64,000 nt of DNA from Rubrobacter aplysinae (GCF_001029505.1 NZ_LEKH01000001.1:62001-126000); one strand, 5' to 3'; counted from the first letter of the stretch, positions 2,122 through 22,462 are shown. Numbers and translations: made by a program. The notes: generated by a model not told the origin, from the letters alone.

Positions 2122-3497
2122 GCGCGGTATTGTTGCCGCTTGCGGTCATAGCGTTCCTCATCCTGATGAACGGACTATTCGTCGCGGCAGAGTTCGCCAT
2201 AGTCGGGGCCAGCCGCACGCGGGTCAAGAGCATGGCCGAGGGCGGGAGCCGGGCGGCCCGCTACGTGCGGCGCGTGCTGCACAGCCCGGCGAACCAGGAC
2301 CGCTACATCGCCATAGCCCAGCTCGGCATCACGCTCGCCACCATCGGGCTCGGCATGTACGGAGAGCCCTCGATAGCGGGCTGGATCTATGGTCCGCTGG
2401 AAGAGGGCTTCGGTCTGGGCACGGCGCTCGCCCACACCATAGGAACCGTGCTCGCCGTGAGCATCATGACCTACTTCCACGTCGTGATCGGGGAGATGAT
2501 CCCGAAAGCCCTCGCCCTCCAGACGCCGGAGCGGACCGCCGTGCGGGTCTCGTCCGCGATGCGCTTTGCCGGGCTCGCCTTCCGCCCAGCGGTGTGGCTG
2601 CTCAACGGGGTCGCCGTGGAGCTGCTGAAGCTGCTGCGCATACCGACCAGCGGCGGCGAGGGACGCTCCTACTCCTCCGAAGAGCTAGAGAATCTCGTCG
2701 AGGAGAGCCGTGAGGGCGGCGCGATAGCCGAGAGTCAGCAGCGCCTGATCTCGAACATCTTCGACTTCGGCGAGCGGAGGGTCCACCAGGTGATGACCCC
2801 GCGCACGAGGGTCGTCGGCATACCGCTTGGCAGCGGCCCCGAGGAGGTCGAGCATAGCGTGCGGGAGTCCAAGCACACCCGCCTGCCGGTCTACGACGGC
2901 GACCTCGACCACACAGCAGGTATTCTGCACGTAAAGGACTTCATCCAGTGGCAGCTCCGCGGCGTACGCAACGGCGATGGCCCGGAGCGCAGTGAGCCGG
3001 GTTTCGAGCTGGAGTCGTTGCTGCGCCGCGCCCCGCGCGTTACCGAGAGCGCCCCGGCCGAGGACGTGCTCGCGGCCTTGAAGCGCCTGCGGGTGCATAT
3101 GGCGGTCGTCATGGACGAGTACGGCGGCACGGCGGGCATCGTTACGCTGGAGGACCTGATCGAGGAGGTCGTCGGTGAGGTGCGCGACGAGTTCGACCGC
3201 GGCGAGGAGCCGGAGCTACAGGCGCTCGGAGATGGCACCCTGCTCGCCAGGGGTAGCGTGCTGCTGGAGCAGGTGAACGAGCTTTACGGCACGCGGCTGG
3301 ACTCCGGGGAGTTCGACACCCTGGCCGGACTGATCATAGAGAGGCTCGGACGTCCGCCAGGTCAGGGCGACGTGGTGGACGTTGACGGCGCCAGCCTGGA
3401 AGCAGTCCAGGTAGAAGGTCTCGCTATCTCCCGCGTGCGGGTGGTGCCGGACGCCGCCGGGCCGGAGGAGCCGGATCAACCGGCTCAGAGCCCGTAA
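2118..3497 (+). CDS. CNNM/CBS-domain transporter-like protein, CorC/HlyC family (copy 2)
   Basis: Paralogue of the preceding gene, 459 residues with the same order of domains: CNNM membrane domain ([19 protein letters not shown] near the N-terminus), paired CBS domains ([20 protein letters not shown] and [19 protein letters not shown]), then a CorC_HlyC domain. The GTG start lies inside the previous stop (GTGA), which fixes the start and implies coupled translation. The tandem arrangement is common in high-GC Gram-positive bacteria. The two copies are clearly diverged, so this is an old duplication. Function as an ion transporter or regulator is inferred from the family only. Confidence 0.88.
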
Positions 3498-3619
3498 CCT
3501 GCCTGGTCGTGGACCTCACGCGTCGCCCTGGAGTGTAGCTTCCGCAGAGCCTGTGTAAAGCCGGTGCTCTGGTATATTTGGGCGCAGGTGTAGTGGGGGC
3601 TGTTGAAAGGGGCGGGAAC

Positions 3620-5203
3620 ATGGCCACGGTACGAGAGGCTACCCTGGATCTCCTGCGATCCCTGGGGATGACCACGGTCTTCGGAAACCCGGGCTCGACG
3701 GAGATCCCGTTCCTGAACGACTTCCCCGAAGACTTTACCTACGTCCTCGGCCTGCAGGAGGCGAGCGTCCTCGGTATGGCAGACGGCTACGCCCAGGGCA
3801 CCGGCGGGCCCGCGCTCGTGAACCTCCACACCGCCCCCGGCCTCGGGAACTCTCTAGGAAACCTCGTGTCGGCGTGGCATAACAAAGCGCCACTCGTGGT
3901 GACGGCGGGCCAGCAGGACCGGCGGCACGTGGCTAAAGAGCCTTTGTTGACCGGAAAGCTCGTGGATCTCGCACGGCCCTACGTGAAGCGGGCGGTGGAG
4001 CCTCTGCGGGCGGAGGACGTGCCGGGGGAGATCCTGCGCGCCTACCATACCGCCTCGCAGCCGCCACAGGGTCCGGTATTCGTCTCCATCCCGATGGACG
4101 ACTGGGATCGGGAGGCTACCGAGGAGCTACACCCGGAGCGGGAGGTCGTCGGAGCACCATCTCCGGACCCGGCGGCGCTCGACCGGGTGACCGAGGCCCT
4201 GCGGTCGGCCGAGAGCCCGGCCATCGTCGCGGGGTCCGGGGTGGACCGGAGCGGGGCTTTTTACGAGGCGGCGGAGCTCGCCGAGCGGGCCCGGGCGGCG
4301 GTATGGACGGATCCGATCTCGGGCCGCGCCGGGTTTCCGCAGGATCACCCGCTGTACCGGGGCCAGCTCGCCCCGGCTCAGGCGCAGCTAGCAAAGCAGC
4401 TCTCCGGCCACGACGTGGTACTCGTGCTCGGTGCACCGGTATTCCTGTACTACCCGTACGTCCCCGGCCCGACCCTGGAGGAGGGCACCCGGCTCTTCCA
4501 CGTCACCGAAGACCCGCAGGAGGCGGCCCGCGCCACGCTCGGCACCAGCATCGTCGGGGACGTCGGCGCGGCGGTCCGGCATCTCGCCGGACGGCTGCCG
4601 GAAGGAGAGAGACTGGCGAAGAACTCCCCTCCCGAGACGCCGGAGAAGGGCGACCCTATGAGCGTGGCGTACGCGATGCACGCGCTCGGGGAGGCGCTGC
4701 CGCCGGAGGCCGTGATCGTGGACGAGTCCATCTCCAGCAACCCGCAGCTAAAGCGGTACGTTACCGCCAAGAGTCCCGGCGGCTACTATACTTCCGCCGC
4801 CGGTGGGCTCGGGTGGGCGATGCCCGCCGCCGTCGGGCTGAAGCTCGCCTCGCCCGAGAGGCCGGTGGTGTGCGCCATCGGGGATGGATCGGCGATGTAC
4901 TCCGTGCAGGCGCTGTGGAGCGCCGTCAGGTACGGGGCTCCGGTCGTCTTCTACGTCATAGACAACTCCGGCTACTCCATACTCAAGGGCTTCCGGGACG
5001 CGCTCGGGGCGGAAGGTGTGCCGGGCCTCGATCTGCCGGGCGTGGACGCGGTGCGGGTTGCGGAGGGGCTCGGCTGCGCGGGCGAGAACGTCTCCGGGGC
5101 GGACGGGTTGCCCGGTGCGATCCGGCGCGCCCTCGTTTCGGGGGAGCCGTACCTGCTGAACGTCGCCGTCGATCCGACCCCTCCGCCGCTGCTTGGCGGG
5201 TAG
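3620..5203 (+). CDS. mdlC: Benzoylformate decarboxylase-like ThDP enzyme
   Basis: Thiamin-diphosphate-dependent decarboxylase, 527 residues from ATG 3620, which follows a purine-rich GAAAGGGGCGGG. The N-terminal PYR domain has Glu47 in the GLQEA motif (cofactor activation) and closely resembles Pseudomonas putida MdlC, keeping Ser26 (NPGST) and His70 (NLHTAPG). The C-terminal PP domain has the GDGS...N metal/diphosphate motif. The known family reaction is benzoylformate to benzaldehyde plus CO2. One active-site position differs: the segment equivalent to P. putida RYHQY around His281 reads LYYPY here, so Tyr278 stands where the third active-site His would be. Substrate range could therefore differ. 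An upstream in-frame start at 3578 would add 14 residues without family support. Confidence 0.8.
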   Translation: MATVREATLDLLRSLGMTTVFGNPGSTEIPFLNDFPEDFTYVLGLQEASVLGMADGYAQGTGGPALVNLHTAPGLGNSLGNLVSAWHNKAPLVVTAGQQDRRHVAKEPLLTGKLVDLARPYVKRAVEPLRAEDVPGEILRAYHTASQPPQGPVFVSIPMDDWDREATEELHPEREVVGAPSPDPAALDRVTEALRSAESPAIVAGSGVDRSGAFYEAAELAERARAAVWTDPISGRAGFPQDHPLYRGQLAPAQAQLAKQLSGHDVVLVLGAPVFLYYPYVPGPTLEEGTRLFHVTEDPQEAARATLGTSIVGDVGAAVRHLAGRLPEGERLAKNSPPETPEKGDPMSVAYAMHALGEALPPEAVIVDESISSNPQLKRYVTAKSPGGYYTSAAGGLGWAMPAAVGLKLASPERPVVCAIGDGSAMYSVQALWSAVRYGAPVVFYVIDNSGYSILKGFRDALGAEGVPGLDLPGVDAVRVAEGLGCAGENVSGADGLPGAIRRALVSGEPYLLNVAVDPTPPPLLGG

Positions 5204-5227
5204 GCCCCGGGTGGGGAGCAGGACGGA

Positions 5228-5995
5228 TTGAGCCGCCGCAGACTGGTGCTGGCCGGGCTCGTGATCCTGCTCGTGGCGGTCGCCGTGGCCGCCCGGACGA
5301 CCGGGCTGGCGGAGTATCTACGGCCCGGAAATTTGGGGCTCTTGAGAGATTGGATCTCGGGTCTCGGCCCCGCCGGTCCCGTCGTGTTTATCTGCGGGTA
5401 CGCCGTCGCCACCGTCGCGTTCTTGCCGGGTACCCCGCTCACGCTGCTCGCCGGGCTGCTGTTCGGGGCGTTTCTCGGCACGACCTACGCCTTTACAGGG
5501 GCCATGATCGGGGCCGTACTCGCCTTTCTGGTGGCCCGGTACGCCGCCCGGGACCTCGTGTCCTCCTGGGTGCAGCGTAACGAGCGTCTCAGGCGGCTCG
5601 ACGCCGGGGTGGAGCGTCAGGGCTGGCGGATGCTGGTCATAACGCGGCTCGTGCCCGTCTTCCCGTTCAACCTGCAGAACTACGCCTACGGGCTTACCCG
5701 CGTCCGGCTCTCCACCTACGCTCTCGTCTCCGGCGTGTGCATAGTGCCCGGCGTCGCCGTCTACGCCTTCGCGGGCGGCTCTCTCGGCTCGCTCTCCACG
5801 GACGACAACCTCGGACGGGTCTTCATCTACCTCGGGGTGGCGGCCGTGATCTTCGTCGCCCTCTCCTTCGTGCCCGGAATAGTCCGGCGCAGGACCGCCG
5901 CCGTTGAGATCGAGGCGGACGAGGCGGACGAGGCGGACGAGACCCCGGAGAGACAAGATGAGCCCGAACCCCTGCAAGGAGAGGATAAGCGATGA
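5228..5995 (+). CDS. TVP38/TMEM64 (DedA-like) membrane protein
   Basis: Integral membrane protein of 255 residues in the SNARE-associated/TVP38-TMEM64 (DedA-like) family. The TTG start is preceded by a GGGGAGCAGGACGGA ribosome site. A first helix (about 5-25) is followed by the family core, including FLPGTPLTLLAGLLFG and the amphipathic QNYAYGLTRVRLSTY segment, then further helices. The C-terminal tail is very acidic with a short DEA repeat. Bacterial homologues are linked to membrane homeostasis and lipid-carrier recycling; exact function here is unknown. It overlaps the next gene by four bases (ATGA). Confidence 0.82.
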   Translation: MSRRRLVLAGLVILLVAVAVAARTTGLAEYLRPGNLGLLRDWISGLGPAGPVVFICGYAVATVAFLPGTPLTLLAGLLFGAFLGTTYAFTGAMIGAVLAFLVARYAARDLVSSWVQRNERLRRLDAGVERQGWRMLVITRLVPVFPFNLQNYAYGLTRVRLSTYALVSGVCIVPGVAVYAFAGGSLGSLSTDDNLGRVFIYLGVAAVIFVALSFVPGIVRRRTAAVEIEADEADEADETPERQDEPEPLQGEDKR

Positions 5996-11119: not shown

Positions 11120-11713
11120 ATGAACCGCGAGAGACTAGAAAAACGCGCCGGGGGAGAAGACCGGGGACCGTGGAAGGTCCTCGGGTCGAGCGCGGTGTAC
11201 GAGAATCCCTGGATCTCGGTCCGCGAGGACCGGGTCGTGCGTCCCGACGGCGAGCCGGGCATCTACGGCGTGGTCCACTACAAGAACCTGGCCGTCGGCG
11301 TCCTGGCGGTCGAGGACGACCACCTCTACCTCGTCGGGCAGTACCGCTATCCTCTGGGGGCCTACTCCTGGGAGATACCGGAGGGTGGCTGCCCCGAGGA
11401 TGAGGAGCCTCTCGAAGCCGCCCGGCGCGAGTTGGCGGAGGAGACCGGCCTCGTGGCCAGAGACTGGCGGCTACTCGGCGAGGCCCACCTGTCGAACTCC
11501 GTGAGCGACGAGTACGGGGTGTGGTTCGTCGCCACCGGCCTCGAAGCGGGCGAGCGCCGGCCCGAGGGCACGGAGGAGCTAGCCGTGCGCCGCGTACCCG
11601 TGGGCGAGGCGCTGGAAATGGCCTCCGACGGCAGGATCACGGACGCCCTCAGCCTCGTCGCAATCATGGGCTACGCGCTGGGCCGTCCCGCTTCCCGCGA
11701 TGCCGCCGTTTGA
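11120..11713 (+). CDS. Nudix hydrolase (ADP-ribose pyrophosphatase-like)
   Basis: Protein of 197 residues with a complete Nudix box: Gly, five residues, Glu, seven residues, then RELAEETGL, around residues 93-115. The N-terminal part (VYENPWISVREDRV...GVVHYKNLAVGVLAVE) matches the ADP-ribose pyrophosphatase subgroup, which cleaves nucleoside diphosphate sugars to nucleoside monophosphate and sugar phosphate with Mg2+. The ATG follows GCCGGAG. It diverges from the lipoate ligase gene across a 22-bp gap, and cofD starts 25 bp after it in the same direction, so it may be the first gene of the cof transcript. Confidence 0.85.
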   Translation: MNRERLEKRAGGEDRGPWKVLGSSAVYENPWISVREDRVVRPDGEPGIYGVVHYKNLAVGVLAVEDDHLYLVGQYRYPLGAYSWEIPEGGCPEDEEPLEAARRELAEETGLVARDWRLLGEAHLSNSVSDEYGVWFVATGLEAGERRPEGTEELAVRRVPVGEALEMASDGRITDALSLVAIMGYALGRPASRDAAV

Positions 11714-11738
11714 TCCCGGCGGCCCGGATAGTGGCGCG

Positions 11739-12686
11739 ATGAAGGTGCTCGCGCTCGCGGGCGGGGTGGGGGGCGCGAAGCTCGCCGCCGGGCTGGAGGC
11801 AGCGTTGCCGGGCGGGGATCTCACGGTCGTCGTGAACACCGCCGACGACTTCGACCTCTGGGGGCTGCGCATCTGTCCGGATCTCGACACGGTCATGTAC
11901 ACCCTCGCGGGCCTTGCGAACCCCGAGACCGGCTGGGGGTTAGCCGGGGAGACCTTCGACTCTCTGGAGATGCTCGGCCGCTACGGCGAGGACACCTGGT
12001 TCTGGCTCGGCGACCGGGACCTCGCAACCCACCTGCTCCGCACCTCGCGCCTGCGCTCCGGCGAAAGCCTTACCTCCATAACCCGCGACCTGGGCCGCCG
12101 CCTCGGGGTACGGAGCGAGATCCTGCCGATGTCCGACGACCCGGTCGCGACCGTGCTCGACACTCCCGCCGGGCCGCTGGAGTTCCAGGAGTACTTCGTC
12201 CGGCGCGGCCAGCGCGACGAGGTGCGCGGCGTAGAGTTCCGGGGCGTGGACGAGGCCAGACCCACGAGGGCCGTCCTCGACGGCATCCGGGAGGCCGACG
12301 CCATAGTGCTGTGTCCCTCGAACCCGGTCGTAAGCCTCGGCCCGATACTGGCCGTGCCCGGGGTGGGCGACGCGTTGGCGGCCTCCTCGGTTCCGAAGGT
12401 CGCCGTCAGCCCGATCGTCGGTGGCCGGGCGCTCAAGGGTCCGGCCGACCGGATGCTCTCCTCGACCGGACACGAGTCCTCCGCCACCGGGGTGGCGCGG
12501 TTCTACGCCGGCCTCATAGACGCCCTGATAATGGACGCCGCCGACGCGGGGGAGGAGTCCGAGATAGAGGGGCTGGACGTACGCCCTTACCTCACGGACG
12601 CCGTGATGCACGACGAGCCCGACCGGGCACGGCTGGCCCGCGAGGTGCTGGACGTCGCCGAGGGTCTGAGCGTGAGGCCCGAATGA
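11739..12686 (+). CDS. cofD: CofD/FbiA, 2-phospho-L-lactate (or PEP) transferase of F420 synthesis
   Basis: Protein of 315 residues that joins the EPPG or LPPG donor to the deazaflavin FO, giving (dehydro-)F420-0. The N-terminal VLALAGGVGGAKLAAGL (residues 3-19) and NTADDFDLWGL form the phosphate-binding region, and CPSNPVVSLGPIL and KVAVSPIVGGRALKGPAD are family hallmarks. I chose ATG 11739, where similarity begins, over an upstream in-frame start at 11700 that adds a non-family stretch. cofC and cofE follow immediately, so three F420 enzymes are consecutive. The FO synthase genes (cofG/cofH) are not in this window. By analogy with mycobacteria the bacterial route probably uses phosphoenolpyruvate. 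Confidence 0.93.
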   Translation: MKVLALAGGVGGAKLAAGLEAALPGGDLTVVVNTADDFDLWGLRICPDLDTVMYTLAGLANPETGWGLAGETFDSLEMLGRYGEDTWFWLGDRDLATHLLRTSRLRSGESLTSITRDLGRRLGVRSEILPMSDDPVATVLDTPAGPLEFQEYFVRRGQRDEVRGVEFRGVDEARPTRAVLDGIREADAIVLCPSNPVVSLGPILAVPGVGDALAASSVPKVAVSPIVGGRALKGPADRMLSSTGHESSATGVARFYAGLIDALIMDAADAGEESEIEGLDVRPYLTDAVMHDEPDRARLAREVLDVAEGLSVRPE

Positions 12687-12704
12687 GGCGCGGATGAGGT
12701 GCGG

Positions 12705-13385
12705 ATGAGCGCCGGACGAGAGCTGGAGAGGACCTTCGCCGCCGTGCCGGTAAAGGACCTGCTCGGCACCAAGAGCCGCCTCGCGCCCGCCCTGGGCCCG
12801 GGCAGCCGGGCCGGGCTCACGCTGTACATGATGAAGCACGTCGTCTCCGTGTTGCGGCTCGCCGGGATACCACCGGCGAACCTCTGCGTCGTGAGCCCGG
12901 ACAAGCTGGTGCTGGAGACCGCCGCCGAGGCCGGGGCCGTGCCGCTGCCCCAGAGCACGAGCGGCCTCAACCCGGCTCTCGAAGAGGCGCGGGAGTGGGC
13001 CTTGTCGCGAGGGGCGGCCTCGTTGCTCGTGCTCCCCGCCGACCTGCCTCTGATCCGGACCGACGACGTCGAGAGCGTGCTCCAGGCTGGGGAGGAGACG
13101 CCGGTCACCCTGGCGCCGGACGCGGCGCGCTCCGGTACCAACGCCCTGCTCCTAGAGCCCCCGGATGCGATACCTTTCCTCTTCGGCAGCGGCAGCCGCC
13201 GGGCTCATCTGGACGCCGCCCGGCGTCGCGGGCTCGGTGCCGGCGAGTGCCCTTTGCCCAACCTCTCCTTCGACATAGACACCGTGGGAGACCTCTCTCA
13301 GTTCGACGTGCCCGAGGAGCTCCGCGTCCCGGATGGTCCGAGTGGTATAGACAGCGTGTTCTCCCGGGGAAAGGGCCGGGCTTGA
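12705..13385 (+). CDS. cofC: CofC/FbiD guanylyltransferase of F420 synthesis
   Basis: Protein of 226 residues with a nucleotidyltransferase fold. It activates 2-phospholactate or, in actinobacteria, phosphoenolpyruvate with GTP to give the donor used by CofD. Motifs: VPVKDLLGTKSRLAP near the N-terminus (GTP loop), LVLPADLPLI (metal-binding Asp region), APDAARSGTNALLL and NLSFDIDTVGDL. ATG 12705 was preferred to GTG 12699 because a GAGGTG site sits at better spacing. It lies 18 bp after cofD and its TGA overlaps the TTG of cofE. Confidence 0.92.
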   Translation: MSAGRELERTFAAVPVKDLLGTKSRLAPALGPGSRAGLTLYMMKHVVSVLRLAGIPPANLCVVSPDKLVLETAAEAGAVPLPQSTSGLNPALEEAREWALSRGAASLLVLPADLPLIRTDDVESVLQAGEETPVTLAPDAARSGTNALLLEPPDAIPFLFGSGSRRAHLDAARRRGLGAGECPLPNLSFDIDTVGDLSQFDVPEELRVPDGPSGIDSVFSRGKGRA

Positions 13386-14116
13386 CGGTCGAGATCATAC
13401 CCGTCCACGGTCTGCCCGAGGTGCGGCCCGGGGCCGACCTCTCTGCTCTCGTGGCCGGGGCCGCCGGCCTGCGCGACGGCGACGTGCTGGTGGTCACGCA
13501 CAAGATCGTGAGCAAGTCCGAGGGCCGGATCGTGGCCCTCTCCGGCGTCGAGCCTTCGCCGTTCGCCCGGCAGTTCGCCGCCGAGCACGGCAAGGACCCG
13601 CGTCAGACCGAGGTCGTCCTGCGCGAGTCGCGGCGTATCGTGAAGATGGACCGGGGCGTCCTCATCACCGAGACCCACCACGGCTTCGTCTGCGCCAACG
13701 CCGGGGTGGACGCCTCAAACGTGCCCGGAGAGGACGAGGTGTGCCTGCTCCCTCTGGACCCGGACGCCTCCGCCGCGAGGCTCCACGCCGCCCTCCGGGA
13801 CCGCCTCGGCATAACCGTGCCCGTCGTGGTCTCCGACTCCTTCGGGCGGCCCTGGCGCGAGGGCATAACCAACGTGGCCCTCGGCGTGGCCGGGATGAGG
13901 CCCCTCGCCGACTACCGGGGCCAGACCGACCCCCACGGCTACCCGCTGGAGGCCAGTATCCTAGCCGTCGCCGACGAGCTCGCCTCGGCCGCCGAGCTGG
14001 TGGTCGGAAAGACCTCCGCCGTACCGCTCGCCATCGTAAGAAACTACGGATACGAGCCCGGCGGCGGCAGCGGCGCGGAGCTGGTAATGAGCCCGGACAA
14101 GGATCTCTTCAGATGA
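13382..14116 (+). CDS. cofE: CofE, F420-0:gamma-glutamyl ligase (stand-alone, no FbiB C-terminal domain)
   Basis: Ligase of 244 residues that adds the gamma-linked glutamate tail to F420-0 using GTP. The segments DVLVVTHKIVSKSEGRIV, SDSFGRPWREGITNVALG and GKTSAVPLAIVRNYGYE are diagnostic. The TTG start overlaps the cofC stop (TTGA). The protein ends after the CofE domain. Mycobacterial FbiB carries an extra C-terminal FMN reductase domain that turns dehydro-F420-0 into F420-0; that domain is absent here, and a homologue of it is found at 21395-22462 fused to another protein. This is the short, archaeal-style CofE. Confidence 0.93.
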   Translation: MTVEIIPVHGLPEVRPGADLSALVAGAAGLRDGDVLVVTHKIVSKSEGRIVALSGVEPSPFARQFAAEHGKDPRQTEVVLRESRRIVKMDRGVLITETHHGFVCANAGVDASNVPGEDEVCLLPLDPDASAARLHAALRDRLGITVPVVVSDSFGRPWREGITNVALGVAGMRPLADYRGQTDPHGYPLEASILAVADELASAAELVVGKTSAVPLAIVRNYGYEPGGGSGAELVMSPDKDLFR

Positions 14117-14223: not shown

Positions 14224-14359
14224 GTGACTTTCAGAGCCACAGCCGCGCCCTGGTCCCGTGGGCGGAGAGGTTTCTACTCCGGCAACCCCGGCGTTCGATG
14301 TATGGGCCCCGCCTAGTCCACCCCATTTTGCAACCGGGTGCCGGTATCTAGCATGTCGC
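14224..14359 (+). promoter_or_regulatory. Candidate SAM-I/SAM-IV-superfamily riboswitch in the cysH leader
   Basis: The leader contains GGCAACC (14281-14287) and GGTGCC (14337-14342), the paired core strings of SAM-I and SAM-IV aptamers, joined by a P3-like helix CCCGG (14287-14291) with CCGGG (14334-14338). A closing P1-like helix pairs GTGAC (14224-14228) with GTCGC (14355-14359). Between them are small hairpins GCCC/GGGC and GGAG/CTCC in the P2 position. The SAM-I kink-turn is not evident, so a SAM-IV or SAM-I/IV variant fits better. Position between the operon promoter and cysH fits feedback control of sulfur assimilation by S-adenosylmethionine. The fold was assigned by eye only. Confidence 0.48.
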
Positions 14360-14407
14360 TCCGGCGAACCCACCACTCTCGGCTCTATTTCAGGAAAGGG
14401 TTTAACA

Positions 14408-15259
14408 GTGTCCAAAGCTCTTACAGCCCGATCGCGGGGCTCGTCAACCGGGCTAACAGCGTTAACGGCGTCCGCGGGCGACGCCGGAGAAACTTCGATC
14501 CCAGAAGCCCGCCAACGCCTGGAACAGGAAGTGGAAGAGGCCGCCTCGGAGCTCGAGGCGCGGCCGGCCGAGGAGATACTGCACTGGGCCGTCGAGCGAT
14601 TCGGGAGCGATCTCGCGCTCTCCGTCTCCTTCGGCGGGCCGGAGGGTATGGTACTTCTGGACATGCTCTCCAGGACGGTGGATCGTACCCCCGGGCTCGC
14701 CGCGGATCGCGAGGCGCGGCCGACGGTCATAACGATGGATACGGGTTTTCTCTTCTCAGAGACCGTGCGCTTCCGCGAGAAGACGATGCGCCGCTACAAG
14801 AACCTGAACCTGCATGTCGCGCGCCCGGCGCTTACGGTGGAGGAGCAGGTCGAGCGGTACGGGGTCGGGATGTACGGTTGCAAGCCCGACACGTGCTGCA
14901 AGATCCGAAAGGTCGAGCCCATGCGCCGCACGCTCGAAGACTATGAGGCCTGGATGACCGGCATCCGCCGCGAGCAGACCGAGAATCGCGCCGCCACGCC
15001 GGTCGTGACCGTGGATGAGCAGTTCGGCAAGGCAAAGGTCGCGCCGCTCGCCGGCTGGACGGCCGACGACGTGGAAGGCTACGTCGAGGCTCACGACGTG
15101 CCGGTTAACCCGCTGCTCAACCAGGGCTACAACAGCATCGGCTGCTGGCCCCAGACCCGGCCCGTGGGCGAGGGCGAGGACTGGCGCGCCGGGCGCTGGT
15201 CCGGCTCGGGCAAGACCGAGTGCGGCCTGCACCTCGCGGACGACACGGGAGGCGAGTAG
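14408..15259 (+). CDS. cysH: Phosphoadenylyl-/adenylyl-sulfate reductase (CysH family) with unusual cysteine set
   Basis: Thioredoxin-linked reductase of 283 residues converting APS (or PAPS) to sulfite. GTG 14408 follows AGGAAAGGG. The PP-loop SVSFGG, ITMDTGFLFSET, and the C-terminal catalytic KTECGLH (Cys272) are present. Assimilatory APS reductases bind a 4Fe-4S cluster with a CC pair and a distant CxxC. Here the pair is Cys163-Cys164 (DTCCKIRK), but the distant motif reads C246-W-P-Q249, so one ligand is Gln. An additional cysteine, Cys158, lies five residues before the pair. The enzyme may bind the cluster with Cys158 as substitute ligand, or be altered in cluster chemistry (inference). 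The gene starts the operon with the sulfite reductase two bases after its stop. Confidence 0.88.
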   Translation: MSKALTARSRGSSTGLTALTASAGDAGETSIPEARQRLEQEVEEAASELEARPAEEILHWAVERFGSDLALSVSFGGPEGMVLLDMLSRTVDRTPGLAADREARPTVITMDTGFLFSETVRFREKTMRRYKNLNLHVARPALTVEEQVERYGVGMYGCKPDTCCKIRKVEPMRRTLEDYEAWMTGIRREQTENRAATPVVTVDEQFGKAKVAPLAGWTADDVEGYVEAHDVPVNPLLNQGYNSIGCWPQTRPVGEGEDWRAGRWSGSGKTECGLHLADDTGGE

Positions 15260-15261
15260 CC

Positions 15262-17019
15262 TTGCAGTTTCTCAGAGAAGGTCAGACCCTGGACAAGCTG
15301 AACAAGGTAGAGAAGGTAAAGCTCGACCGGCACCCGCTGGAGGTGCGCGACGCCATCCGCGACACGTACTCCAAGGAAGGCGTAGCCTCCCTGCACGCCG
15401 TGCCCGGAGAGCTTGAGCGCCTCAAGTGGGCCGGCATCTATCCGCAAAAGCAGGGCGGCGACGCGTTCATGATGCGCCTCAAGGTCCCCGGCGGCGTAAT
15501 GAGCCCCGAGCAGGCGCGGGTCGTCGGCCAGATCGCGGTGGACTTCGCCCGGGGCCCCGAACCAAACCCCGTGTTCGGCGACGCGTTTCTGGACGTCACG
15601 ACGCGCCAGGACATCCAGATGCACTGGTTCAAGATGGGGGAGATACCCGAGATCTGGCGCAGGCTCGAAGAGGTCGGGCTGACGACCACCCAGGCTTGCG
15701 GCGACTCCTCTCGCAACGTGCTCTCCTGCCCCGTGGTCGGCCTGGACGAGAACGAGGTCATAGACGCCTACCCCACGGCGCAGGCGATAAGCGACTACTT
15801 CACCGACAACCGCGAGTACGCGAACCTGCCGCGCAAGTTCAAGATGAGCGTCACCGGCTGCTGCGAGGACTGCGCCCAGTCCGAGATCAACGACATAGGA
15901 CTCGTCCCGGCCCGTCTCGAAGACGGTACCGTGGGCTTCAACGTCCGGGCCGGCGGCGGTCTCTCCGACGGCCCAAGGCTCGCATCGGACATAGACGTGT
16001 TTATCACCGAGGATCAGGCCGTGGAGCTCACGCGCGGCATCGCCCAGGTCTTCGGCGAGCTCGGCAACCGGGAGAACCGCTGGATGGCGCGCATGCGCTA
16101 CCTGGTGCAGGAGCTCGGCCCCGAGGGCTTCCGGGACGCGCTGCAGGCTCGCGTAAACTTCGAGCTCACGCCCGCCGGGGAGGACCTGACCGACCATTAC
16201 CGGGGCGACCATACCGGCGTCCACTGTCAGAAGGACGGCAACTACTACGTTGGGCTCAACGTCATGGTCGGCAGGATGGGCGGCGAGGACTTCATAGAGG
16301 CTGCTCGGCTCGCCGAGGAGTACGGCGGCGAGGGCGGCTCCATCCGGCTCGCGACCGACCAGAACATCGTCATCACCGGCATACCCGAAGAGCGGCTGGA
16401 CGAGTTTCTCGCCGAGCCCTTGCTTGAGACCTACTCCCCGACCCCCGGACCGTTCTCACGCGGGGTCGTGGCCTGCACCGGCAGCGAGTTCTGCCGCTTC
16501 GCCATCGTCGAGACCAAGGCCCGCGCCGTCAGGTGGGCGAAGGAGATGGACGAGAAGTACGCGAATGATGGGCTTGAGCAGGACTCCATCGGGATGCACT
16601 TCTCCGGCTGCTCGGCGTCGTGCGCTCAGCCCCAGATCGCAGACATCGGCTTCCGGGGCGAGACCGCCAAGGGACCGGACTCCTTTGTCGAGGGTGTGGA
16701 TATCGGGCTCGGCGGCTCTCTGGGCGGCGACGCCGCGTTCATAGACTGGGTGGACGGCGCACGTCCGACCTCCGCCGTACCCGCCGCCCTGACCGCTCTA
16801 ATAGAGCGGTTCAAGGCCGAGCGCCACGAGGGCGAGAAGTTCCATGAATGGTCCCGCCGTATGGAGAACCGCGGCCTGCGCAAGACCATCAAGGACGCGG
16901 CCTCCGGGGCGGATTTCAGCGAGCCCGACCCGTGGCAGACGCACGGCAACGAGGACGGTGCTCCTCAGGGCACGGACGGCACGGCGGGCTCACCCGAGAT
17001 TCCCGGCACCAAAGATTAA
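15262..17019 (+). CDS. Siroheme-4Fe4S sulfite/nitrite reductase, assimilatory SirA/NirA type
   Basis: Cytosolic hemoprotein of 585 residues that reduces sulfite to sulfide (or nitrite to ammonia) with six electrons. Two ferredoxin-like half-domains and two siroheme-4Fe4S domains are visible: TTRQDIQMHWF and TTQACGDSSRNVLSCPV in the first half, and cluster ligands Cys405-x5-Cys411 (CTGSEFC) and Cys450-x3-Cys454 (CSASC) in the second. The TTG start follows GGGAGGCGAG. It sits between cysH and an FrhB-family protein, which makes sulfite the likely substrate. It has no NADPH-flavoprotein domain and no CysJ gene is nearby, so it needs an external donor; the adjacent F420-type oxidoreductase is the natural candidate. 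Sulfite versus nitrite cannot be settled by sequence alone. Confidence 0.88.
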   Translation: MQFLREGQTLDKLNKVEKVKLDRHPLEVRDAIRDTYSKEGVASLHAVPGELERLKWAGIYPQKQGGDAFMMRLKVPGGVMSPEQARVVGQIAVDFARGPEPNPVFGDAFLDVTTRQDIQMHWFKMGEIPEIWRRLEEVGLTTTQACGDSSRNVLSCPVVGLDENEVIDAYPTAQAISDYFTDNREYANLPRKFKMSVTGCCEDCAQSEINDIGLVPARLEDGTVGFNVRAGGGLSDGPRLASDIDVFITEDQAVELTRGIAQVFGELGNRENRWMARMRYLVQELGPEGFRDALQARVNFELTPAGEDLTDHYRGDHTGVHCQKDGNYYVGLNVMVGRMGGEDFIEAARLAEEYGGEGGSIRLATDQNIVITGIPEERLDEFLAEPLLETYSPTPGPFSRGVVACTGSEFCRFAIVETKARAVRWAKEMDEKYANDGLEQDSIGMHFSGCSASCAQPQIADIGFRGETAKGPDSFVEGVDIGLGGSLGGDAAFIDWVDGARPTSAVPAALTALIERFKAERHEGEKFHEWSRRMENRGLRKTIKDAASGADFSEPDPWQTHGNEDGAPQGTDGTAGSPEIPGTKD

Positions 17020-17062
17020 TCAGAGACCAGGAACTTAGAAACCAGGAAAGGTAAGTAGCCAA

Positions 17063-18337
17063 TTGGCTGGATTCGACATCCGCGACATGATGAGCGACGT
17101 CGAGGAGGCGCCGGGCAAGGTCTGGTTCTGGGACCTCGAGAAGGCGGTCATAGACGCCGACCGCTGCATTCAGTGCGGCGTGTGCGTCGCGGCCTGCCCG
17201 ACCGACTCAATCGGCATCGGCGACGACGACCTGCCGGAGCTGGTAAAGATGTGCACCGGCTGCTCCCTGTGCTGGGACTTCTGCCCCCGTGGCGGCCTGC
17301 AGTACGAGGCGACCTGGAAGCTCTCCGCGAGCGACAAGAAGGGTAACGTTGCGGCGACCGCTGACATCAACGGACAGGCGTTTGGTGTTGGCGACGGTAA
17401 TGGAAGTGCGGAGGCCAGCGCGGCGCAGAGCCTGGGTCCGGTGCACGAGAGCCACACGGCCCGCGTGAACCCCATGATCGAGGGTGCCCAGGACGGCGGA
17501 TTCGTTAGCGCGCTCATCATCTCGCTACTGGAGAAGGACGAGATCGACGGCGCGCTGCTCGCGAAGGAGAGCGCGACCGAGCCGTGGAAGGGCGAGGCGT
17601 TCCTGGCGACCACGCCCGAGGAGGTCCGGGAGTGCGCCGGGAGCTTCTACAACCAGACGCTCGCGCTCGGACACGTGGACTTCAAGGACTACGATCTGCC
17701 GCCTAACCCGCGCGTCGCGGTCGTGGGGACGCCGTGCGAGATCGAGGGCATAAAGGCCATGCAGGCCCGGCCCTGGGTGTGGGGCTCCTCCAAGGTAGAG
17801 GCCATAACGCTCACTATAGCGCTCCTGTGCACCAAGAGCTTCAACTACGAGAAGTTGATGCTGGACGAGGTGCAGGAAAAGCGCGGCGTGAACCTGGACG
17901 ACGTTGGCCGGGTGGACATCATCCGGGGCAAGTTCATCGTCCAGGACCACGACGGCGAGACCATCTTCGAAGAGCCCATAAAGGACTTCCACGGCGCGGC
18001 CCTCAAGGGCTGCGACGAGTGCGCCGACTTCATGGGACATGCCGCCGACATCTCCGTGGGCTCCGTCGGGAGCGCCGACGGATACTCCAGCGTGCTGGTC
18101 CGTTCGGACGAGGGCAAGGTCGCCTTTGATGCCGTTCGCGACAAGCTTGAGCTGCGGGAACTTGACAAGCCCGAAGCATTGGATAAGCTGGACGGCTTGG
18201 ATAAGAAGACGGCGTTCAAGAGCCTGAAGCGCACCTTCGACCCCGATGCCCCGTTGTTCATAGACTTCGAGGACCATCTGGAGAACTACGAGGGCACCGA
18301 CCGGGCTCCCGTACACCACGACGCGGTGAGGTATTAG
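17063..18337 (+). CDS. FrhB-family F420H2 oxidoreductase with two 4Fe-4S ferredoxin motifs
   Basis: Protein of 424 residues. The N-terminus has two full 4Fe-4S motifs, Cys35-x2-Cys38-x2-Cys41-x3-Cys45 and Cys64-x2-Cys67-x2-Cys70-x3-Cys74, followed by a low-complexity linker (about 85-130) and an FrhB/FdhB-type domain that in relatives binds FAD and oxidises F420H2. Diagnostic segments are VVGTPCEIEGIKAM, LLCTKSFNYEKL and CDECADFMGHAADISVGS. The same module is the N-terminal half of archaeal F420-dependent sulfite reductase (Fsr) and occurs in FpoF. Here it is a separate gene directly after the siroheme reductase, so I infer that it passes electrons from F420H2 to that enzyme. The TTG start has only a distant AAAGG site; translational coupling may help. 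Confidence 0.88.
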   Translation: MAGFDIRDMMSDVEEAPGKVWFWDLEKAVIDADRCIQCGVCVAACPTDSIGIGDDDLPELVKMCTGCSLCWDFCPRGGLQYEATWKLSASDKKGNVAATADINGQAFGVGDGNGSAEASAAQSLGPVHESHTARVNPMIEGAQDGGFVSALIISLLEKDEIDGALLAKESATEPWKGEAFLATTPEEVRECAGSFYNQTLALGHVDFKDYDLPPNPRVAVVGTPCEIEGIKAMQARPWVWGSSKVEAITLTIALLCTKSFNYEKLMLDEVQEKRGVNLDDVGRVDIIRGKFIVQDHDGETIFEEPIKDFHGAALKGCDECADFMGHAADISVGSVGSADGYSSVLVRSDEGKVAFDAVRDKLELRELDKPEALDKLDGLDKKTAFKSLKRTFDPDAPLFIDFEDHLENYEGTDRAPVHHDAVRY

Positions 18338-18338
18338 C

Positions 18339-18701
18339 TTGGAAGACCTAAACAACCTGCGCAGCGAGCTCCGGATGCCCGAGGAGCCCGCAGAGCTGCG
18401 GACCCGGACCCGGAGCCTTATAGAGCAGTCGCCTTGCGAGGGCCGGAGCGTTATCAGGGACGGGGAGTTTCTCGCGGCCCCTCTGTGGGAGGAATGGTCC
18501 GAGGCGCTCACCGGGTGTGGCATGGACTACGACGACTTCGTCGAGGTCGCCCGGGGCTACGCCGACGAGGTGAGGCTCTGGGTCGTGGGCGAGCGGGTAT
18601 GGGAGCACTGCGCCTCCGGCCTGGCCGGACGCGCCGCCCGCCGGGTGCCCGGAGGCTGTGGCGAGCGGGCCGAGCTCGCGGGAGCGGGGGTGAGCCGATG
18701 A
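18339..18701 (+). CDS. Uncharacterised 120-residue protein of the sulfite-reductase operon
   Basis: I do not recognise this family. TTG 18339 begins one base after the FrhB-like stop, and the TGA overlaps the ATG of sat (ATGA), so it is tightly embedded in the operon. The protein is acidic and probably helical, with [19 protein letters not shown] near the N-terminus and [22 protein letters not shown] in the middle. Four cysteines (CEG, GCG, HCA, GCG contexts) are spread without a recognisable cluster motif. The C-terminal 25 residues are Gly/Ala/Arg-rich. Its position suggests an accessory for sulfate activation or for the reductase pair, but nothing in the sequence proves that. Confidence 0.7.
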
Positions 18702-19903
18702 GCGCCGCCACGGAGTTCGCGACGATAGCGCCCCACGGCGGCGAGCTCGTCAACCGGCTCGCGCCGGAGAGTGAGCGGGCGGAGCGGCTGGAGAAGGCGA
18801 AGAGCCTGGTTAAGATCGAGCTCGGCCCCCGGCAGCTGTCGGACCTGGAGATGATCTCGACCGGTGTTTTCTCCCCGATTCGGGGCTTTATGACCAGCGC
18901 CGACTACTCTCCAGTGGTCGAGAACATGCGTCTGGCAAACGGGCTCGTATGGAGCCTGCCCATCACCCTCTCCGCGAGCGACGAGGAGATCTCCGGCGTT
19001 AGCGAGGGGGATGAGATCTCGCTCGCTGACGGCGACGGCCGCATCGTCGCCACGATGCTCGTCGAGGAGCTCTACTCCTACGACAAAAGGCGCGAGGCCC
19101 GCGAGGTGTACCGCACCGAGGACGAGGAGCATCCTGGTGTCGCGAACCTCTACGCGCAGGGGGATACCCTGATCGGAGGCGAGGTCACCCTCCTCGAACC
19201 GGAGCCGAACGCCCGCAACTTCCCCAAGTACTACTATGAGCCCGCCGAGCTGCGTCAGGCCTTCGCCGACAACGGTTGGAAGCGCGTCGTGGGCTTCCAG
19301 ACCCGCAACCCGGTCCACCGGGCGCACGAGTACATCCAGAAGAGCGCCCTGGAGATCGTGGACGGGCTGCTGCTCAACCCGCTCGTCGGCGAGACCAAGT
19401 CCGACGATATCTCCGCGCCGGTACGGATGCGCTCCTACGAGACGATCCTCGAGAAGTACTATCCCCAGGACCGCTCGATGCTCGCGGTGTTCCCGGCGGC
19501 GATGCGCTACGCCGGGCCGCGTGAGGCCGTGTTCCACGCCATGTGCCGCAAGAACTACGGCTGCACCCACTTCATTATCGGGCGCGATCACGCCGGGGTC
19601 GGCAGCTACTACGGCACCTACGACGCGCAGGAGATCTTCAAGCAGTTCTCCGAGGAGGATCTCGGCATCACGCCGCTCATGTACGAGCACGCCTTCTTCT
19701 GCCGCGCCTGCGGCCAGATGGGCACGACCAAGACCTGCCCACACGACGCCGAGGAGCACGTGTTCCTCTCGGGCACGAAGGTGCGCCAGATGCTCGCCTC
19801 CGGAGAGTACCCGCCGGCCGAGTTCTCGCGCCCGGAGGTCATAGAGGTCTTGATGGAGGGTATCCGGGACGAGGAGAAGACTGTCAAGCAGCCCCGCACC
19901 TGA
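18698..19903 (+). CDS. sat: Sulfate adenylyltransferase (ATP sulfurylase)
   Basis: Single-chain ATP sulfurylase of 401 residues making APS from sulfate and ATP. ATG 18698 overlaps the previous TGA; an open extension upstream is out of family. Active-site motifs [12 protein letters not shown] (about residues 206-217) and GRDHAGVG (about 295-302) are intact. A C-terminal CxxC...C pattern ([16 protein letters not shown]) is the zinc site seen in homodimeric bacterial and archaeal Sat enzymes. No fused APS kinase is present; cysC is the next gene, 66 bp downstream. This type differs from the CysDN heterodimer. Confidence 0.95.
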
Positions 19904-19969: not shown

Positions 19970-20545
19970 ATGGACAACGGGAACTCGCTCAAGATAAAGA
20001 ACGGCTTCACGCTGTGGTTCACCGGGCTCTCGGGTGCCGGTAAGACCACCATCACGGATATAGTGGAGAAGCAGTTACGCCACGAGCAGGTGCCGATAGA
20101 GGTGCTCGACGGCGACGTGGTACGCACCAACCTCTCCAAGGGCCTCGGCTTCTCCCGGGAGGACCGCGACACCAACGTGCTGCGCATCGGGTTCGTGGCG
20201 GACCTGCTTACCCGCAACGGGGTCGGTGTGATCGTCAGCGCCATCTCGCCTTACAAGGAGGCCCGCGACGAGGTGCGGCGTAACGTCGGGGACTTCGTGG
20301 AGGTCTTCGTGGACGCGCCGGTCGAGGTCTGCGCCGACCGCGACGTGAAGGGTCTGTACGCCAAGGCTTACTCCGGCGAGATCCCGGAGTTCACCGGCGT
20401 CTCCGACCCCTACGAGGCCCCGGCCGCCCCCGAGCTCCACCTGCACACCGATCAGGAAGAGGCCGAGGAGAGCGCCCAGCGGGTCATCGAGAAGCTGGTG
20501 GAGCTCGACTATCTCGAGCGGGTACAAGAGACCAGCCGCGCGTGA
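19970..20545 (+). CDS. cysC: Adenylyl-sulfate kinase
   Basis: APS kinase of 191 residues that phosphorylates APS to PAPS. The P-loop GLSGAGKTT (about residues 20-28), LDGDVVRTNLSKGLGFS, and RDVKGLYAKA are family markers. The ATG at 19970 has GGAGGGAATC directly before it and is preferred over an in-frame ATG at 19943. The gene lies between sat and a TauE/SafE permease whose GTG overlaps this stop. Presence of cysC together with a CC-containing CysH leaves open whether APS or PAPS is the main substrate of reduction. Confidence 0.95.
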   Translation: MDNGNSLKIKNGFTLWFTGLSGAGKTTITDIVEKQLRHEQVPIEVLDGDVVRTNLSKGLGFSREDRDTNVLRIGFVADLLTRNGVGVIVSAISPYKEARDEVRRNVGDFVEVFVDAPVEVCADRDVKGLYAKAYSGEIPEFTGVSDPYEAPAAPELHLHTDQEEAEESAQRVIEKLVELDYLERVQETSRA

Positions 20546-21345
20546 TAGACCTGCTCCCGACCCTTTTCGGCCTGCTGGTCGGTTTTCTGGTGGGCCTCAC
20601 GGGGGTCGGGGGCGGAGCTCTTATGACCCCATTTCTGATAGCGGTCGTGGGCGTCTCCGCCCCGACGGCCATCGGGACGGATCTCGTATTCGCCACACTC
20701 ACCAAGATGGCCGGCTCGGTCCAGCACTACCGCCAGCGGTCGGTGAATCTGGAAGTCGCGTTATTCCTGGGTCTCGGGAGCATACCGGCGAGCCTTTTAG
20801 GGGTGGCGACGCTGGAGTGGATCAAGGGCTCTTTCGAGGATGCCGCGGTCAACTCCATCATGATCACCATAATAGGGCTGGTCCTGATCCTGGTCGGCGG
20901 CTCCCTGGTCTTCCGCATCTTCATGCCGGAGAGGTGGATGCGAAAGCGCCAGGACGTGTGGAGCGGCGAGGGCAAGATGAGCCGCCGCCGCCGTTACTAC
21001 ACCATCCTGTTCGGCGCGATGGGCGGCTATCTGGTCGGTCTGACCTCGGTCGGGGCCGGGAGCATCATGGCGATCATACTCCTGCTCTTGTACCCGCTGT
21101 CTCCGGCGGTCATAGTGGGCACGGACATCGTCCACGCCACTGTGCTCGCGCTGGTTACCGGCCTCGCCCACATAGCGAGCGGCAACGTCGCCTTCGGCCT
21201 CGCCGGCACCCTGCTCATCGGCAGCATCCCCGGCGTGCTCATCGGCAGCCGCGTCGCCCGCTACGTGCCCTCCAAGCCACTGCGCCTGATCCTGGCGGTT
21301 ATGGTAACCGTCGTCGGCTTCCAGCTGATCTTCGGCGGCCACTGA
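20542..21345 (+). CDS. TauE/SafE-family permease (candidate sulfate/sulfite carrier)
   Basis: Membrane protein of 267 residues with about eight hydrophobic segments in two repeats, each opening with a glycine-rich motif (VGLTGVGGGALMTPFLI and GLTSVGAGSIMAIIL). TauE/SafE (DUF81) members move sulfur oxyanions, organosulfonates or sulfoacetate, or simply relate to sulfur metabolism. A charged loop near residues 135-150 separates the halves. GTG 20542 overlaps the cysC stop, so this closes the sulfate operon and is likely its importer or a sulfite exporter; direction cannot be inferred. No CysPTWA-type ABC sulfate importer is in this window. Confidence 0.87.
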   Translation: MIDLLPTLFGLLVGFLVGLTGVGGGALMTPFLIAVVGVSAPTAIGTDLVFATLTKMAGSVQHYRQRSVNLEVALFLGLGSIPASLLGVATLEWIKGSFEDAAVNSIMITIIGLVLILVGGSLVFRIFMPERWMRKRQDVWSGEGKMSRRRRYYTILFGAMGGYLVGLTSVGAGSIMAIILLLLYPLSPAVIVGTDIVHATVLALVTGLAHIASGNVAFGLAGTLLIGSIPGVLIGSRVARYVPSKPLRLILAVMVTVVGFQLIFGGH

Positions 21346-21394: not shown

Positions 21395-22462
21395 TTGAAA
21401 CCCACCTTGAACCTTACGGACGATTCGGCCTCTTTTCTCATAAGAAGCCGGGTGGCCCGGCTCGCGACCGCGGACGCCGCCGGTGAGCCGCACGCCGTGC
21501 CGGTCTGCTTCGCCTGCCCGCCGGGCGTGGAATCTCTCTACATCGCGCTGGACGAGAAGCCCAAGAAGGGCTCGGCCAGGGGGCTCAAGCGGGTGCGGAA
21601 CATCCTGGAAAACCCGCGCGTCGCCCTGATCGCCGACCGCTACGCCGAGGACTGGAGCCTCCTGGCCTACGTGATGCTGCGGGGCCGGGCCGACCTCGTT
21701 GAACCCGGCGCCGAGGAGCACGACGCCGCCGTACGCCTCCTGCGCGGCAAGTACCGCCAGTACGAGCGGATGCGCATCGAGAACGAGCCCGTGATCGCGA
21801 TCCGCCCCGAGCGCGCCGCCTCCTGGGGAGCCCTCTCCAAACCCGACGTCCCGGAGGGGCCCATGCTCGACGCGCTGTATGGACGGCGCTCGGTGCGGCG
21901 TTATCTGGAAAAGCCCGTGCCGCCGGAGACCCTGGACCGGGTGCTCGAAGCCGGACGGTGGGCTCCGTCGCCCCACGGTCGCCAGCCCTGGCGCTTCGCC
22001 GTGGTTACCGGGGAGGGCGCGAAGCGCCGCCTCGCGGACGAGATGGGGGAGTCCTGGCGGGAGAACCTGCGGATGGACGGCCAGAACGAGGGGACCGTCG
22101 AGAAGCGGCTCGAAGGCTCCCGGCACCGGCTATTCGACGCGCCAGCCCTCGTACTGCTGTGCCTGTACACGGGAGACCTGGACCGCTACCCGGACCCCGG
22201 GCGCGGCGCGCACGAGACGGAGATGGCCGTGCAGAGCCTCGGGGCCGCCGCCCAGAGCATGCTGCTCGCCGCCTACGCCGCCGGGCTGGACGGGGGCTGG
22301 ATGTGCGCCCCGCTCTTCTCCCCGGCCACGGTGCGCCGCGCTCTGGACCTGGATGAGACGCTCGAACCCCAGGCGCTCCTCACCCTCGGGTACGCCGCCG
22401 GAGACCCACCGAAACGCCGCTCCCGGCTGCCGCTAGATGAGCTGGTGGTGTACCGGGATTAG
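21395..22462 (+). CDS. Fusion of F420-type PPOX split barrel with an FbiB C-terminal-like FMN reductase
   Basis: Two-domain protein of 355 residues. Residues about 1-135 are a PPOX-fold domain of the Rv0121 type (LIRSRVARLATADAAGEPHAVPVCFA; WSLLAYVMLRGRADLV). Residues about 150-355 are a nitroreductase-type domain that follows the C-terminal half of mycobacterial FbiB: GRRSVRRYLEKPVP, APSPHGRQPWRF, a WRENLRMDG...EKRLEG segment, and LFDAPALVLL. In mycobacteria that domain reduces dehydro-F420-0 with FMNH2. Because the cofE gene here lacks it, this fusion is a good candidate for the missing reductase (inference). The TTG start has only a weak ribosome site; it lies 50 bp after the permease gene. 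Confidence 0.82.
   Translation: MKPTLNLTDDSASFLIRSRVARLATADAAGEPHAVPVCFACPPGVESLYIALDEKPKKGSARGLKRVRNILENPRVALIADRYAEDWSLLAYVMLRGRADLVEPGAEEHDAAVRLLRGKYRQYERMRIENEPVIAIRPERAASWGALSKPDVPEGPMLDALYGRRSVRRYLEKPVPPETLDRVLEAGRWAPSPHGRQPWRFAVVTGEGAKRRLADEMGESWRENLRMDGQNEGTVEKRLEGSRHRLFDAPALVLLCLYTGDLDRYPDPGRGAHETEMAVQSLGAAAQSMLLAAYAAGLDGGWMCAPLFSPATVRRALDLDETLEPQALLTLGYAAGDPPKRRSRLPLDELVVYRD

Follow-up and report, generated by a model that had tools for sequence, protein, structure and literature searches.

In haloarchaea, a putative F420H2-dependent assimilatory sulfite reductase (aFsr) was proposed by Susanti and Mukhopadhyay (PLoS ONE, 2012) to consist of aFsr-α (aSir) and aFsr-β, a homolog of Fsr-N, and the tree of Fsr-N homologs in the same work already held Rxyl_0964 of Rubrobacter xylanophilus and a sequence of Thermobaculum terrenum (PMC3448663). 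A 2021 review of F420 tabulates the FrhB-type redox-coupling family for Euryarchaeota only (PMC8498797). Here we analyzed a 64,000-nucleotide stretch of the Rubrobacter aplysinae genome (NZ_LEKH01000001.1:62001-126000; hereafter the window), in which positions 15262-18337 carry a gene for a siroheme reductase (SiR) followed directly by a gene for an FrhB-family protein. Judging from sequence comparisons, the two proteins probably form a bacterial aFsr, in which SiR would be the α subunit and the FrhB protein the β subunit. The idea of a split F420H2-dependent sulfite reductase, put forward for this locus in a preliminary description made from the DNA, is not new, having been proposed in 2012 as aFsr. 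Added here are the wide and constant occurrence of the pair in bacteria, its place in a sulfate-assimilation operon, a small conserved downstream gene (orf120) and a substituted cluster ligand in CysH.

Both open reading frames of the preliminary description were recovered at the same positions. The SiR gene starts with TTG and has a Shine-Dalgarno sequence, GGAGG, upstream. The features of the pair are as follows:

15262-17019, + strand: putative aFsr-α, a siroheme-[4Fe-4S] sulfite reductase of SirA/NirA type, 585 aa (Pfam NIR_SIR and NIR_SIR_ferr, PDB relatives, conserved residues).
16474-16623, + strand: ligands of the siroheme-coupled cluster, CX5C...CX3C (Cys405, 411, 450 and 454), read from the sequence and invariant among relatives; PMC10229431 describes this motif in both Fsr and assimilatory SiR.
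17063-18337, + strand: putative aFsr-β, a predicted F420H2 dehydrogenase subunit of FrhB/Fsr-N type with flavin adenine dinucleotide (FAD) and three [4Fe-4S] clusters, 424 aa (Pfam, phmmer, fold match).
17165-17284, + strand: N-terminal ferredoxin domain of the FrhB protein, two CX2CX2CX3C motifs (Cys35/38/41/45 and 64/67/70/74), invariant in 44/44 relatives.
17456-18166, + strand: predicted F420H2-oxidase domain, with QDGG (143-146), PCX30CX60CX2C (Cys225/256/317/320), RGK (288-290) and SVGS (331-334), from alignment to FrhB (3zfs) and conservation (PMC3591093, PMC3930138).

SiR had the duplicated NIR_SIR_ferr/NIR_SIR architecture (PF01077, E 8e-53; PF03460, E 6e-33). Pfam showed these domains alone, as expected of a siroheme reductase without its own flavin domain, and detected neither a flavin or ferredoxin domain (Fer4 included) nor the second ferredoxin domain present in the reductase half of Fsr. 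The relatives of SiR in the PDB were tobacco nitrite reductase (3b0l, E 9e-89) and Mycobacterium tuberculosis NirA (1zj8, E 4e-78), which upholds its earlier assignment to the assimilatory SirA/NirA type; the match to the reductase half of Fsr was weak (E 2e-9). The positions that in assimilatory enzymes bind sulfite and the siroheme cluster, namely Arg72, Arg151, Lys192, Lys194 and the four cluster cysteines (CX5C, CX3C), were invariant in 18 sequences, haloarchaeal ones included. In the alignment, the position of Lys194 is occupied by Asn in wild-type plant nitrite reductase, and the retention of Lys argues for sulfite as the substrate. Tyr60 and Cys146 were also invariant and may correspond to the Tyr and Cys that are paired in M. 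tuberculosis NirA. A second siroheme-reductase-like stretch was found elsewhere in the R. aplysinae genome (G000:C6:33598-34329); it comprises a 223-aa open frame, covers the C-terminal half only, is 43% identical to the window SiR and is possibly a remnant.

The downstream protein matched PF04432 (E 4e-36) and PF04422 (E 8e-20) and carried N-terminal Fer4 domains with two CX2CX2CX3C motifs, confirming that an FrhB-family protein with two 4Fe-4S motifs directly follows SiR; to these a third, non-canonical cluster site of FrhB type (Cys225/256/317/320) can now be added. By phmmer, its top PDB match was 8riu, in which the F420-reducing zeta subunit belongs to a CO dehydrogenase from archaea (ACDS; E 3e-37), with the Fsr-type entries 9tn7, 7np8 and 7npa (E 9e-37 to 6e-35) and the FrhB structure 3zfs (E 3e-30) also matching strongly, whereas the match to HCAR was far weaker (E 0.0015). 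A fold search with the AlphaFold model placed 8riu, FrhB, FwdI and Fsr first, with HCAR later, at rank 13. All 12 cluster cysteines and the QDGG motif were conserved in 44/44 FrhB sequences, with one gap at Cys320. Studies of Frh place QDGG at the FAD pyrophosphate and assign the cluster ligands and the F420 loop (PMC3591093, PMC3930138). The loop near F420, IGKGK in MmFrhB, reads IIRGK at 286-290 in the window protein, position 290 being basic (K or R) in 44/44 sequences. The window FrhB is the sole one in the R. aplysinae genome. More distant FrhB paralogs in the phylum, with about 35% identity, were rejected as equivalents, as they form a separate clade with the loop signature AGSRY and with SxGG; no SiR match was found beside them in the six loci fetched.

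The family alignment, used to scan named GTDB genomes, yielded 80 independent loci, mostly from Rubrobacter and Acidimicrobiaceae, with single metagenome-assembled genomes (MAGs) labelled Chloroflexi, Thermomicrobiaceae and Acidobacteriota. SiR lay directly upstream of FrhB and on the same strand in 79 of them, and the contig of the 80th ends there; this order is far above chance, and chance adjacency was rejected. With start codons chosen by script, the two genes overlap by 4 nt in 47 of the 79 pairs and by 1 nt in 19 more. No SiR-FrhB fusion occurred among 83 loci with both genes, and in the window the two frames differ, so the proposal that two Fsr-like parts are here separate polypeptides was borne out. 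Within Rubrobacter, the pair sits between cysH and sat-cysC, with cofDCE close by in most loci of sufficient length. Most acidimicrobial pairs have an upstream cysH. The FrhB gene was present in 33/39 Rubrobacteraceae genomes, the other six being draft assemblies; the two of these that were checked also lacked SiR and cofD, a joint absence that fits one missing region. The SiR-FrhB unit is thus a constant element of the sulfate-assimilation genes of Rubrobacter and of many Acidimicrobiaceae, and the pair also occurs in three further families of the phylum (f13, f50 and f8). In family f8, a diverged SiR-FrhB pair adjoins cysH (L034 8085-9674; L036 1329-3050). One f8 genome (G224) retains an ordinary SirA-like SiR just upstream of the diverged pair, and aFsr there may therefore serve another role.

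Maximum likelihood analysis grouped the FrhB-partnered SiRs in one clade (support 98/97) that excludes the SirA-like SiRs of other phylum members, most of which adjoin cysH with no FrhB alongside. The FrhB tree, also maximum likelihood, has sub-groups similar to those of the SiR tree, and the distance matrices of SiR and FrhB correlated at 0.93, compared with 0.80 and 0.86 for either one with cysH. Haloarchaeal pairs fell in the same clade as the bacterial pairs, with support of 98/97 for SiR and weaker support, 86/88, for FrhB.

The preliminary description had called for a search for co-occurrence of the pair with F420 synthesis. Of 41 genomes with the pair, 38 have a true cofD; a further test found cofD in each of its ten partnered genomes, in one of them as two pieces. 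The other three of the 41 were MAGs lacking both cofD and cofE. Two of these have a strong cofH and are probably incomplete, and one of the two also lacks ribosomal protein S8, which marks it as such. A Thermomicrobiaceae MAG (L074) is then the sole exception: co-occurrence holds in all but this one clear case, and no other example of the pair in an organism lacking F420 emerged. The search for CysJ gave no match in the R. aplysinae genome (3.19 Mb, 99% complete) and no full-length cysJ in 11 other genomes, with nothing above the cut-off in any of the 12, and NADPH acting through CysJ thus finds no support as a donor. F420H2, suggested earlier in place of ferredoxin or NADPH, is the better-supported candidate donor, every prediction tested at the sequence level having come out in its favor.

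The pairing, the matched trees, the presence of cofD, the kept residues and the lack of CysJ together give good support to electron transfer from F420H2 to sulfite, and from them we infer the donor, a physical complex, its electron path and its activity. The β subunit would oxidize F420H2 at FAD, where the hydride would be split into single electrons, and these would reach the siroheme-[4Fe-4S] center of α by way of the FrhB-type [4Fe-4S] cluster and then the two clusters of the ferredoxin domain. Because no second ferredoxin domain was found in SiR, the path would lead directly from the ferredoxin domain of FrhB to the siroheme cluster. The α subunit would then perform the six-electron reduction of sulfite to sulfide for cysteine synthesis, using sulfite supplied by Sat, CysC and CysH of the same operon.

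Several observations weigh against this scheme. The AlphaFold model of the FrhB protein is of moderate quality (mean predicted local distance difference test score, pLDDT, of 62.5), and its N-terminal ferredoxin domain is poorly modelled. Residue arguments for the F420 site are indirect because F420 has rarely been seen bound in the FrhB fold; haloarchaeal members mostly lack the basic residues of RGK, and the lysine of the family's Lys-Tyr loop is replaced by Phe in the window protein and by Asn in ACDS zeta. The pair of the L074 MAG lies on an 8-kb contig, and this genome lacks cofH as well as cofD and cofE. With regard to the source of F420H2, Fno was not found in the R. aplysinae genome and the top FGD-like protein scores below the family cut-off. 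Finally, a literature search with poor coverage of subscription journals found neither an aFsr assay nor an account of the bacterial operon.

It is unlikely, in our view, that the FrhB-like protein does not use F420 and is instead fed, like HCAR, by reduced ferredoxin or another one-electron donor, with SiR an ordinary ferredoxin-dependent enzyme provided with a built-in adaptor. HCAR, a ferredoxin-driven plant enzyme, does share the fold, the top NCBIfam name for SiR is ferredoxin-nitrite reductase, although below the cut-off, and the L074 MAG has the pair without the tested F420 genes. However, proven F420 modules match the FrhB protein far better (E 1e-37 to 1e-30) than HCAR does, the protein already has its own 2x[4Fe-4S] domain, and the genomes bearing the pair almost always make F420, with cofDCE close by in Rubrobacter. 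The separate polypeptides, unfused in all loci with both genes, would also suit an F420H2:ferredoxin oxidoreductase that fills the soluble ferredoxin pool, SiR being one client and no complex being formed; we regard this as quite improbable given the near-invariant adjacency, the overlapping or abutting genes and the matched trees, and since the gene of a general ferredoxin reductase should turn up in further contexts. More improbable still is that the pair serves nitrogen assimilation by reducing nitrite with F420H2, or that it accepts nitrite as readily as sulfite, for although plant nitrite reductases are the nearest solved relatives of SiR, FsrII of anaerobic methanotrophic archaea reduces nitrite with F420H2 (PMC9295563) and the haloarchaeal SiR homologs are publicly annotated as ferredoxin-nitrite reductases and are not beside cys genes, the Rubrobacter pair is flanked by cysH and sat-cysC, acidimicrobial pairs mostly follow cysH, and SiR has the sulfite-type Lys194 and invariant Tyr60 and Cys146.

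The genes around the putative aFsr are all on the + strand, in the order cofD, cofC, cofE, cysH, SiR, FrhB, orf120, sat, cysC, tauE. Pfam and NCBIfam agreed with the identities first given to cofDCE upstream and to cysH, sat and cysC in the operon:

11700-12686, + strand: cofD, F420 biosynthesis (TIGR01819, above cut-off).
12699-13385, + strand: cofC, F420 biosynthesis (TIGR03552, above cut-off).
13373-14116, + strand: cofE, F420 biosynthesis (TIGR01916, above cut-off).
14258-15259, + strand: cysH, (phospho)adenylyl sulfate reductase, true start probably at about 14410 (PF01507, E 1e-47; NCBIfam PRK02090, above cut-off).
18339-18701, + strand: orf120, a small all-helical protein and candidate third component (conserved after FrhB; AlphaFold2).
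18698-19903, + strand: sat, ATP sulfurylase (PF01747, PF14306).
19970-20545, + strand: cysC, adenylyl sulfate (APS) kinase (PF01583).
20542-21345, + strand: permease of the TauE/SafE family (PF01925).

Missing from the preliminary description was orf120, which lies between FrhB and sat. A gene of this type, encoding 100-120 residues, directly follows FrhB in 68 of the 79 loci with enough sequence, and no homolog was found in four haloarchaeal loci or in seven others. The protein had no family match in Pfam or NCBIfam; its AlphaFold2 model is all-helical (pLDDT 90) and gave no match in a fold search against the PDB. Its association with the pair makes orf120 a candidate for either a third subunit or an assembly factor. 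We tentatively raise the possibility, plausible if somewhat short of an even chance, that the main route from sulfite to sulfide in Rubrobacteria and Acidimicrobiia is an F420H2-driven enzyme of three components, SiR, FrhB and orf120, the last acting as assembly factor or docking subunit, and that F420H2, acting through an iron-sulfur/FAD relay so far listed for Euryarchaeota alone, would thus be a reductant that these aerobic bacteria cannot do without in anabolism.

CysH retains the paired cysteines (CC) of the [4Fe-4S] site of APS reductases, but the fourth ligand, a Cys in CxxC, is replaced by Gln (15121-15232). Many Rubrobacter copies share this Gln, nearly all Acidimicrobiaceae copies beside aFsr have Thr instead, and Cys occurs in 15 of 68 matched sequences; the substitution suggests that the cluster is ligated in an unusual way or has been lost. 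The TauE/SafE permease gene, which overlaps the end of cysC and is kept in most Rubrobacter loci, possibly serves sulfite or sulfonate transport. Downstream of the operon, a fusion of PNPOx-like and nitroreductase domains is encoded at 21395-22462 and is found near the operon in many Rubrobacter loci. A search of the operon leader against Rfam found no RNA element, its single match being due to chance.

If the enzyme is active, bacterial F420 would gain a central and possibly essential job, the provision of sulfide for cysteine, beyond detoxification and secondary metabolism. Most Rubrobacter and Acidimicrobiaceae hosts live with oxygen. Whether aerobic bacteria employ F420H2 as an anabolic reductant can be put to a clean test with the pair, a simple two-gene system that also permits a direct check of the 2012 aFsr hypothesis. 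On the aFsr reading, the annotation of the haloarchaeal copies as ferredoxin-nitrite reductases in public records would be an error, now corrected.

Among known sulfite reductases, CysIJ relies on the flavoprotein partner CysJ, for which R. aplysinae has no match, and M. tuberculosis NirA/SirA belongs to the same siroheme reductase family as the window SiR but is, to our knowledge, ferredoxin-dependent and without an FrhB partner. Free-standing F420 modules plugged onto a redox enzyme, as proposed here for the FrhB protein, are seen in the ACDS zeta subunit and FwdI of Ca. Ethanoperedens (8riu, 8rja), zeta also having an N-terminal ferredoxin domain (PMC11493965); these modules, however, serve CO dehydrogenase or formylmethanofuran dehydrogenase, and they work in the opposite direction, reducing F420 where the FrhB protein would oxidize F420H2. 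In group I Fsr of Methanococcales (7np8, 7npa), an FrhB-type F420H2-oxidase with an N-terminal 2x[4Fe-4S] domain likewise feeds a siroheme reductase, but Fsr of methanogens (EC 1.8.98.3) is one chain with a Dsr-LP-type reductase and an inserted second ferredoxin domain, whereas the window pair comprises two chains and a reductase of SirA/NirA type. The haloarchaeal aFsr shares with the window pair its two separate subunits, the NirA/aSir-type SiR, the Fsr-N-type β and an identical gene order, with identities of 50-52% for FrhB (Salinirubellus, Haladaptatus, Haloferax) and 55-56% for SiR. In haloarchaeal plasmid copies the two genes overlap, and on a plasmid of Halomontanus rarus (L134 3338-7230) the gene before FrhB (3338-5878), annotated as rhodanese-like, encodes a rhodanese-SiR fusion. 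The window pair differs from the haloarchaeal aFsr in its bacterial host, its cysH-sat-cysC operon, the nearby cofDCE and the presence of orf120.

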